A stretch of 64,000 bases of DNA. It comes from Kribbella kalugense. GTDB lineage: Bacteria > Actinomycetota > Actinomycetes > Propionibacteriales > Kribbellaceae. Of this stretch, positions 52,042 through 53,796 are shown one piece after another. The position numbers and the translations under genes were made by a program. Under the pieces are notes generated by a model. That model ran no database searches, had not been told where the DNA came from, and worked only from the letters and a program-made list of their open reading frames with translations. The stretch is taken from the NCBI RefSeq assembly GCF_004365875.1, contig NZ_SODF01000002.1:682001-746000 (forward strand), given 5' to 3'. Position 1 is the first letter of the stretch, and each line of letters opens with the position of its first letter.

Positions 52042-53238
52042 TTAGGACGGGTTCTCGGCGTGGGTCAGCGTCTCCCACGCGACGAACAGGTTGTTCGAAC
52101 CCGCCGGACGCTTGGACTCGGTCAGGGCCTGGGTGTTCGCCATCGCGATCCCCAAGCGGGTGTGCAGCGCGTTGTAGCCGACCTCGGTGATCGGGCCGAG
52201 GCCGCGGTTCACCGAGCCGCCGCAGAGCCACGACGGGACCGGCTCGAGATTGCGCTCCCAGCGGGACTGGAACCCGAGGGCCTGACGAAGTCGCTCACCG
52301 AACTCCGGGTACATGTCGATGCCCTGGATCCGGGCCGTTTCCAGCACATGTGAGATCGACGAGATGCCGTAGCCGGTGTGGGTGAAGTCGCGGCAGGTCT
52401 CCTGAGTCAAGCCTGTCACGAACGTCCCCTGGCCCTGCCAGTAGCTGACGATCTTGTCGCGGGTGTTGAGGTTCTGGCTCGGCACCGTCTTCGGCAGCGC
52501 GCCGTCGGACTCCAGGTACACGTACGCCGGGACCCGCAGCCGGTAGAGCGCGATCGACTTGTCGTAGATCGTCTTGTCCTCCAGGAACACACCGATGCCC
52601 TGAAGGGCCTCGGTCATGCTCAGTTCCCAGTTCCCGTTGGAGTTCGAGCCGTTGATCATCTTCGGCACGTACACGTTGCGCAGCATGGTCGCGAACCGGC
52701 CTGAATTCGGCCAGTTCCCGTAGAGGTACTTGATGATCTCGGCGGCCTTCGGCCACGAGGACGCGGACCACGCGGTCTGCAGCGGCGCGTTGCTGTTGGT
52801 GTGGTCCGTGATCGTCGCCGACCACGCATCCATCAGCTGGATCGACTTCTGCGCGTAGGCGGTGTTGCCGGTCAGATACCAGAGCAGGGCATCGGTGTAC
52901 GCCGCGATGGCGTCCTCGCGCTCGTCGGTGCAGCCGAGGTTCGGATCGGAGTACGGGCCGCATTCGACCACGGCTCGCGGTTTCGGCGTACGGGAGAGCG
53001 AGGCGTACGAGCTGCTCTTCGCCTGGTTGAACGCGTTGGTCCACGGCTGCGCGCCGGCCTGCACCTTGGCCTTGACGAAGTCGAGCTGAGCCCGGCTCAC
53101 ACCAACACCGGGATGGGTAAACGTGGCCGGCGCGTCTACGGCGGCCGGTGCGTTCGTGGAGGCAATCGCTGGACTGCTGAGTGTCCCGGCAACCAGCGCA
53201 GCACAAGCTGCAGCCAGCACCAGAGGTTTCTTCTTCAT
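52042..53238 (-). CDS. Exported alginate-lyase-like polysaccharide-degrading protein
   Basis: 398 residues from the ATG at 53238. A Sec signal covers about 1-27 ('KKKPLVLAAACAALVAGTLS'). The mature part is an (alpha/alpha)-type domain as in the alginate lyase family: repeats of long helices, 'AIAAYTDALLWYLTGNTAYA', 'NGSNSNGNWELSMTEALQGI', and 'QETCRDFTHTGYGISSI', where Asn, His and Tyr residues typical of the lyase site occur. Acts on an acidic polysaccharide outside the cell; the true substrate is uncertain. Its upstream region contains the long hairpin element. Confidence 0.82.
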   Translation of the reverse strand: MKKKPLVLAAACAALVAGTLSSPAIASTNAPAAVDAPATFTHPGVGVSRAQLDFVKAKVQAGAQPWTNAFNQAKSSSYASLSRTPKPRAVVECGPYSDPNLGCTDEREDAIAAYTDALLWYLTGNTAYAQKSIQLMDAWSATITDHTNSNAPLQTAWSASSWPKAAEIIKYLYGNWPNSGRFATMLRNVYVPKMINGSNSNGNWELSMTEALQGIGVFLEDKTIYDKSIALYRLRVPAYVYLESDGALPKTVPSQNLNTRDKIVSYWQGQGTFVTGLTQETCRDFTHTGYGISSISHVLETARIQGIDMYPEFGERLRQALGFQSRWERNLEPVPSWLCGGSVNRGLGPITEVGYNALHTRLGIAMANTQALTESKRPAGSNNLFVAWETLTHAENPS

Positions 53239-53271
53239 GGGCGGTGTCCTGTCTTCGGGGCGGTGGACACT

Positions 53272-53455
53272 TGCGCTTCCCCCACGTGCCCTGTGCCGGC
53301 TGTCACTCGAGTGATTGCGGTGTTCAGGTGCGTGCATCGCGGTGCCGGAGCGAAGGCCTCGATGTTGGTTCATCGTGGCCTTTGCTCCGGTGCCGCGAGG
53401 TGCGTGCCTGGGCGCCGCAAGCGCCGAGTGCCAGCCGGCACAGGGCACAAGCGCA
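53272..53455 (+). ncRNA. 184-base extended hairpin with G:U-compatible arms (candidate structured RNA or palindromic element)
   Basis: Left arm 53286-53364 and right arm 53371-53448 pair around a 6-base loop (TTGGTT, 53365-53370). I count about 61 Watson-Crick and 10 G:U pairs, three mismatches, and one 5x4 internal loop. An outer TGCGCTT/AAGCGCA pair (53272-53278 with 53449-53455) extends it across a 7-base bulge. All ten transition differences between the arms are G:U in a rightward transcript and would be A:C in a leftward one. It lies between the lyase gene and the remains of a Tat-signal gene. It could also be a mobile palindromic repeat; no tested function. Confidence 0.6.
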
Positions 53456-53578
53456 GGGTCTTTGCGAAAGTTTGACGACGGACGGTGAGGGCGTCAACAT
53501 CTCAGCAGGAACAAAATTCACTTCGGAACAAAACAGGAGAATTTCCCAGCTCAGTGGAACAAAGTGAGGATCTGTCCC

Positions 53579-53796
53579 ATGAAACGACGCCAGTTCCTGA
53601 CCGTCGGAACCGCAGTCATGGCCGGCCCGGCACTACCCTCCGTCACCACCCCGCCGTCCCCCGCAGCGTGGTCCGGTACCTGAACTACACCCGCGGGTGG
53701 GCCGAGCAGCACGCGTACGGCATCCCCGGCGGCGTCACCACCCGGCACGCCGACAACTGGCAGGTCTCGCGAGTTAGTGACCGAGCTGACTGGTGA
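53579..53796 (+). pseudogene. Remnant of a Tat-exported protein gene (frameshifted and truncated)
   Basis: An ATG at 53579 with a GTGAGGA ribosome site opens a Tat-like signal ('MKRRQFLTVGTAVMAGPALP') that stops after 34 codons at 53681-53683. Just before this, near a run of C at 53658-53662, the coding character moves to another frame and continues ('VVRYLNYTRGWAEQHAYGIP', then 'GGVTTRHADNWQVS') until a TGA at 53794-53796. A single indel would join the two parts, giving about 70 residues, still far too short for an enzyme. The 3' end overlaps the convergent PPOX gene. Original family not recognised. Confidence 0.6.

Follow-up and report, generated by a model that had tools for sequence, protein, structure and literature searches.

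The long hairpin in the window (the whole analyzed stretch of 64,000 nucleotides from Kribbella kalugense) is one member of a hitherto unlabelled family of mobile palindromes of ∼163 bp. Copies of this family are dispersed, and their orthologous empty sites are free of the hairpin, which confirms the small palindromic mobile element that the original prediction had listed among its possibilities. We found no published description of such a hairpin family in the open-access literature.

On the + strand, the window hairpin (Table 1) forms 74 pairs, namely 63 Watson–Crick and 11 G:U pairs, and no A:C pair. The stem is interrupted by a T.C mismatch (53303/53431), an A.G mismatch (53314/53421), a bulged A (53310), and the two conserved mismatches listed in the table. 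Folding of positions 53262–53465 as RNA yields −167.9 kcal/mol for the + strand (z = −16.5; 0 of 200 shuffled sequences equally stable) and −128 for the − strand, whereas folding of the hairpin as DNA yields −83.8 and −69.2 for the + and − strand, respectively. The predicted long hairpin with a 6-base loop is thus real. Its transitions between the arms do all leave G:U and never A:C, although a recount gives 11 G:U pairs instead of the ten transitions reported initially. The lack of likeness to a known RNA family also held up, as an Rfam search with the window hairpin returned nothing at the gathering threshold; weak sub-threshold matches to miRNA-hairpin models of Rfam reflect generic hairpin likeness.

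Table 1. Features of the hairpin element in the window and of its target-site flanks
Feature	Position	Strand	Remarks
Whole hairpin element, subfamily A copy	53286–53448	+	163 bp; empty orthologous site known
5′ outer arm	53286–53309	+	Pairs with 53425–53448; sequence varies among copies
3′ outer arm	53425–53448	+	Partner of 53286–53309
5′ half of the conserved core	53310–53364	+	GTGC at 53328–53331, 53332–53335, and 53342–53345
Terminal loop TTGGTT	53365–53370	+	Varies among copies (CGGAG, TTTTTC, CTTTTC, others)
3′ half of the conserved core	53371–53424	+	GTGC partners at 53390–53393, 53400–53403, and 53404–53407; contains the family signature GCGAGGTGC
Conserved A.G mismatch	53336/53399	+	A.G in 45/46 A copies and 76/104 B copies
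Conserved T.T mismatch beside the loop stem	53359/53376	+	T.T in 46/46 A copies and 99/104 B copies
Left target-site flank	53279–53285	+	From comparison with the empty site in two relatives
Right target-site flank AAGCGCA	53449–53455	+	From comparison with the empty site in two relatives

The window copy lies between divergent genes, since the gene for a protein with an Alginate_lyase Pfam domain (PF05426, E = 8.7e-9; 52042–53238, − strand) starts 48 bp from the hairpin. The second neighbor is the remnant of a gene for a Tat-exported protein (53580–53796, + strand) with an MKRRQFLTVG start; in the window, this gene is disrupted and also shortened internally. Its reading frame is intact at the locus L023 of a relative, Kribbella sandramycini, in line with the “dead Tat gene” of the original prediction. 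Judged by eye, the intact protein is presumably an unsaturated-uronyl hydrolase of the GH88/GH105 type. The orthologue of the window copy is found in the same relative (82.6% over 1.6 kb), and the changes in its arms are compensated.

The genome of the window holds ∼14 clear copies by BLAST and 17–23 by covariance model, which measure 161–165 bp from arm end to arm end. Within the genus, the family is present in 36–37 of 37 genomes; when matches to one or the other query are counted, all 37 give at least one and often more than 10. Outside the family but within the same order, none of the 21 genomes searched gave a match. A pattern scan recovered copies in Kribbella and also in Streptomyces and Lentzea, and relatives of the element occur on Streptomyces and Embleya plasmids. 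Searches of phages, viral contigs, and IMG/VR found no copies, and the window copy itself was not found on a phage or plasmid. The Kribbella copies form two subfamilies, A (which includes the window copy) and B. A single genome of Lentzea terrae (G208) contains ∼91 model matches. In the Streptomyces-type copies L240, L241, L254, and L265 (genus g27, probably Streptomyces), the loop is TACTGGACGTA and the ends are sequences such as CTAGGGCCTGT...ACAGGCCCTAG; a variant of the core has TCTC/GAGA where the A.G mismatch would otherwise lie.

Searches with joined flanks identified orthologous empty sites for 14 copies of the genome. These sites contain no hairpin, which indicates that the element inserts, and many show CTAG at the junction. 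The empty site of the window copy is CCCCCACTAGCGCAG in two relatives and reads CCCCCAC TAG CGCAG. Occupancy of the loci is patchy between close species, and empty sites are common. In an alignment alone, a TA duplication looks the same as insertion of [A...T] into CT^AG. However, duplicated bases should be conserved equally, and the ends of 149 copies differ in this respect: T(−2) is conserved in 54–63% and T(+1) in 84–86%, A(−1) in 84% and A(+2) in 40–47%. A TA duplication is therefore unlikely. The element inserts at CT^AG-like sites, apparently without target duplication. The target duplications that had been named initially as the sign of a mobile repeat were not found. The copy-specific arms might have been explained by a hairpin or terminator already present at the target, but the hairpin-free empty sites rule this out. 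In relatives, the two copies L344 (G007:C3:896860–897240) and L347 (G016:C1:2644660–2645045) carry internal deletions. These are bounded by short direct repeats (GCGAG; GTGC region), a pattern that slippage across a hairpin would be expected to leave.

In the core of the element, both arms read GTGC on one and the same strand, and these motifs therefore pair with each other via tandem wobbles. The wobble columns and the A.G and T.T mismatches are conserved across 46 A copies and 104 B copies. The outer 23 pairs show an arm identity of 57–67% among copies, yet 95–96% of them are Watson–Crick; after shuffling of the 3′ letters this value is 57–67%, and after sliding 23–33%. At many outer-arm positions, all four types of Watson–Crick pairs occur across the copies. 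Orthologous copies are ∼95% identical in the core compared with roughly 85–91% in the flanks, indicating that they are constrained in place. Compensated double changes between orthologous copies amount to 47 by the RNAalifold structure and 24 by geometry. The RNAalifold tally (47 double changes, 40 G:U, 0 A:C) is partly circular because this structure excludes mismatches, and orthologue changes were recounted with geometric pairing and without the pair L076/L416. L076 and L416 differ more in their arms than their flanks would lead one to expect, and they may represent independent insertions at the same site. Copy L345 (G019:C1:1885160–1885600) occupies the same site as copy L013 of the genome of the window; the flanks are ∼95% identical and the arms and loops very different, so that L345 and L013 reflect either an independent insertion at the same site and in the same orientation or a replacement by another copy.

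Of 165 unique Kribbella copies, 150 were aligned in subfamilies A (46) and B (104). At positions that are normally Watson–Crick pairs, the + strand shows 209 G.T versus 11 A.C mismatches, 84 G.G versus 3 C.C, 78 A.G versus 10 C.T, and 6 T.T versus 2 A.A. Counted as distinct column events, the same ratios are 65:11, 19:3, 21:10, and 5:2. Equal numbers on both sides would be expected of a symmetric palindrome, and the family is therefore asymmetric with respect to strand. The homologue search proposed with the original prediction recovered homologues throughout Kribbella that keep their pairing, with wobbles on the predicted strand. When vertically inherited copies that share a site are compared, the single changes comprise 47 of the G-type and 1 of the C-type. 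The tolerated mismatches are the most stable ones in DNA as well as in RNA, in agreement with selection that favors a folded + strand. In 34 of 83 contexts, both neighbors are antisense to the + strand. The asymmetry is 99:3 in copies with both neighbors antisense, and it is equally strong in every gene context, so that the constraint is probably not on read-through RNA. These counts show that pairing of the + strand, and not of its complement, is kept at fixed sites once the element has inserted, regardless of the direction of the neighboring genes.

Replication origins were mapped by parS sites in 12 of the 13 genomes searched. In the genome of the window, the parS region (C2:1.177–1.199 Mb) comprises parB-parA-gidB-yidC-rnpA / dnaA-dnaN-recF-gyrB-gyrA, with the genes recognized by eye from their translations; this parAB-rnpA-dnaA-dnaN-gyrBA order confirms oriC. 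Among the best-scoring copies listed from 12 Kribbella genomes, 147 of 149 carry the G:U strand in one replication orientation: right of the origin it is the − strand, and left of it the + strand. The corresponding binomial p value of ∼3e-41 assumes independent copies, which orthologous copies are not. The bias is already evident within single genomes, where the copies listed agree in 20/20 (G012), 17/17 (G024), 17/17 (G030), and 16/16 (G035) cases. The exceptions among the copies listed are G014:C1:647874 and G028:C1:1065465, the latter of which lies near the assumed terminus. It follows from this orientation that the G:U strand matches the nascent lagging strand in sense and corresponds to the leading-strand template. 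The rule is not universal, since Lentzea terrae and one Streptomyces genome have copies of both orientations on the same contig.

We see roughly an even chance that the element is a non-autonomous hairpin that is moved in single-stranded form at replication forks by an enzyme acting in trans. The imperfect palindrome of ∼163–165 bp enters CT^AG-like sites with undetectable duplication and, in Kribbella, almost always in one orientation relative to the fork. Its working form would be a single-stranded hairpin, most likely of DNA, and the enzyme at the fork may recognize the GTGC wobble core and the helix, not the sequence of the outer arms. This mode of action would resemble that of peel-and-paste or REPIN elements without their Y1 transposase. 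A more specific scheme is tentative: an enzyme other than Y1/HUH may insert the single strand of nascent-lagging sense at CT^AG without duplication, and a fork-dependent process may re-pair the arms in place.

Y1 transposases (PF01797) were absent from all 39 genomes searched, 25 of them Kribbella, whereas five control genomes were positive. DUF4096 transposases are missing from the genome of the window and occur in 1 of 19 genomes of the genus; DDE_3 (IS630) transposases are likewise missing from the genome of the window and occur in 4 of 16. All three were rejected as movers, being absent or rare in Kribbella. No recurrent gene was found beside the copies, and apparent partner ORFs at these positions turned out to be the hairpin itself read as protein. 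Against a hairpin moved at the fork stands the strand under constraint, since the + strand is the leading-strand template, whereas IS200/IS605 elements act on the lagging-strand template. The mixed orientations in Lentzea terrae and one Streptomyces genome also speak against it. In addition, the constraint on fixed, vertically inherited copies exceeds the needs of a purely selfish element. These three observations limit our confidence in the mechanism.

An ordinary MITE would depend on an IS630- or IS5/IS427-type DDE transposase for its movement, with TA duplication at CTAG and the arms serving as plain terminal inverted repeats. TA-like dinucleotides do lie beside many copies, and several joined flanks (L020, L015, and L014) contain one TA more than the empty site. 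However, the end bases are unequally conserved, the terminal inverted repeats are too variable for recognition by sequence, and the two DDE families searched are as scarce as described above. As a plain MITE also leaves the orientation lock and the strand asymmetry unexplained, we regard it as rather unlikely. It is unlikely as well that the copies are sites useful to the host in replication or segregation, which would arise in random orientation and survive with the correct ori–ter polarity, their pairing being kept for function. Such sites would account for the orientation of 147 of 149 among the best-scoring copies listed and for the higher identity of orthologous cores relative to their flanks, but not for loci that are patchily occupied between close species and commonly empty, for copies that decay by deletions between direct repeats, or for the missing orientation lock in Lentzea terrae. 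A filter at replication is fairly improbable. Here, the lagging-strand template (the A:C strand) would fold into hairpins, and a putative NucS, the mismatch endonuclease of actinobacteria, would remove copies or orientations that expose G-T, G-G, or T-T. On this strand, G.T, G.G, and T.T are indeed rare and A.C, C.C, and A.A common; NucS of Mycobacterium smegmatis repairs exactly G-G, G-T, and T-T (PMC11551767), and NucS requires the sliding clamp (PMC8228993). Yet the filter predicts A.G and C.T in equal numbers, whereas 78 and 10 are seen (10 and 1 among orthologue singles), and by itself it does not explain why the arms stay complementary.

Strand-specific tolerance of G:U, compensatory changes, and a very stable + strand fold would also be expected of a structured RNA from the + strand, be it regulatory, a 3′ UTR, or an RNase III substrate. 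The original prediction had proposed a selected + strand RNA stem, of which the strand-specific constraint stands for the whole family; the read-through RNA does not, given the asymmetry of 99:3 in the antisense contexts (34 of 83). The same ratio, together with an orientation that tracks replication and not transcription, disfavors the processing substrate suggested at the outset. These results apply to read-through RNA, and an RNA transcribed from its own promoter may exist. Inspection of the sequences outside the core revealed no conserved promoter, and we consider an RNA distinctly improbable. Mutation of C to T (or of cytosine in general) biased to the + strand, without selection, would agree with the orthologue single changes, most of which hit the C of a G:C pair. 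The regional bias of this kind envisaged originally is contradicted by + strand substitutions in the flanks, which lack an excess (C/T 114, A/G 149; A/C 81, G/T 54). Since G:U changes of the A-to-G type are also seen and the compensated double changes (24 by geometry) are unaccounted for, we attach very little credence to mutation bias.

A near-absolute replication orientation is rare for mobile DNA and is joined here to a folding constraint on one strand, for which ∼150 aligned copies allow counts at every base. Three questions thus become directly testable with this family: the strand of a long palindrome that an actinobacterial fork exposes, the enzyme by which hairpins move when a genome lacks Y1 transposases, and the way in which the arms of a palindrome remain complementary during sequence drift. 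It provides a handle on DNA-moving or DNA-processing machinery, and as an unlabelled repeat family it is useful for the annotation of Kribbella, Lentzea, and Streptomyces genomes.

The element shares with REPIN/REP sequences and their RAYT transposases (PMC3116915, PMC3733652) the organization as short, non-autonomous extragenic palindromes with long hairpins and compensatory changes in the arms. Whereas REPINs have conserved ends (a GTAG-type foot) and a variable spacer, the Kribbella element has a conserved core and variable outer arms. Moreover, Y1/RAYT transposases are found in 0 of 25 genomes of the genus, and the strict replication orientation is a feature of the Kribbella element. Single-strand transposons of the IS200/IS605 type follow replication and act on the lagging-strand template; with these and their non-autonomous derivatives, the element has in common the hairpin, the absence of target duplication, and, in Kribbella but not in Lentzea terrae, the orientation that follows replication (PMC5371812). 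It differs in that TnpA(Y1) was not found in the genus, the constraint acts on the leading- and not the lagging-strand template, and the target CT^AG is weakly conserved.

ERIC, NEMIS/Correia, and other MITE-like palindromes of bacteria are, like the Kribbella element, non-coding imperfect palindromes of 100–165 bp at TA-containing sites. In contrast to these, the Kribbella element possesses paired outer arms that are free in sequence and a replication-locked orientation, and it does not fit a TA duplication. MITEs derived from IS5/IS427 or IS630 also insert around CTAG or TA, and some arms of the Kribbella family begin with GGGCGTGTC, which we take to be IS5-like. However, the parent transposases are absent or rare in the hosts, and the arms are too variable. 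By its size, the Kribbella element is MITE-like, whereas its combination of a conserved wobble core, free paired arms, undetectable duplication, near-absolute replication orientation in one genus, and a folding constraint on one strand is unusual.
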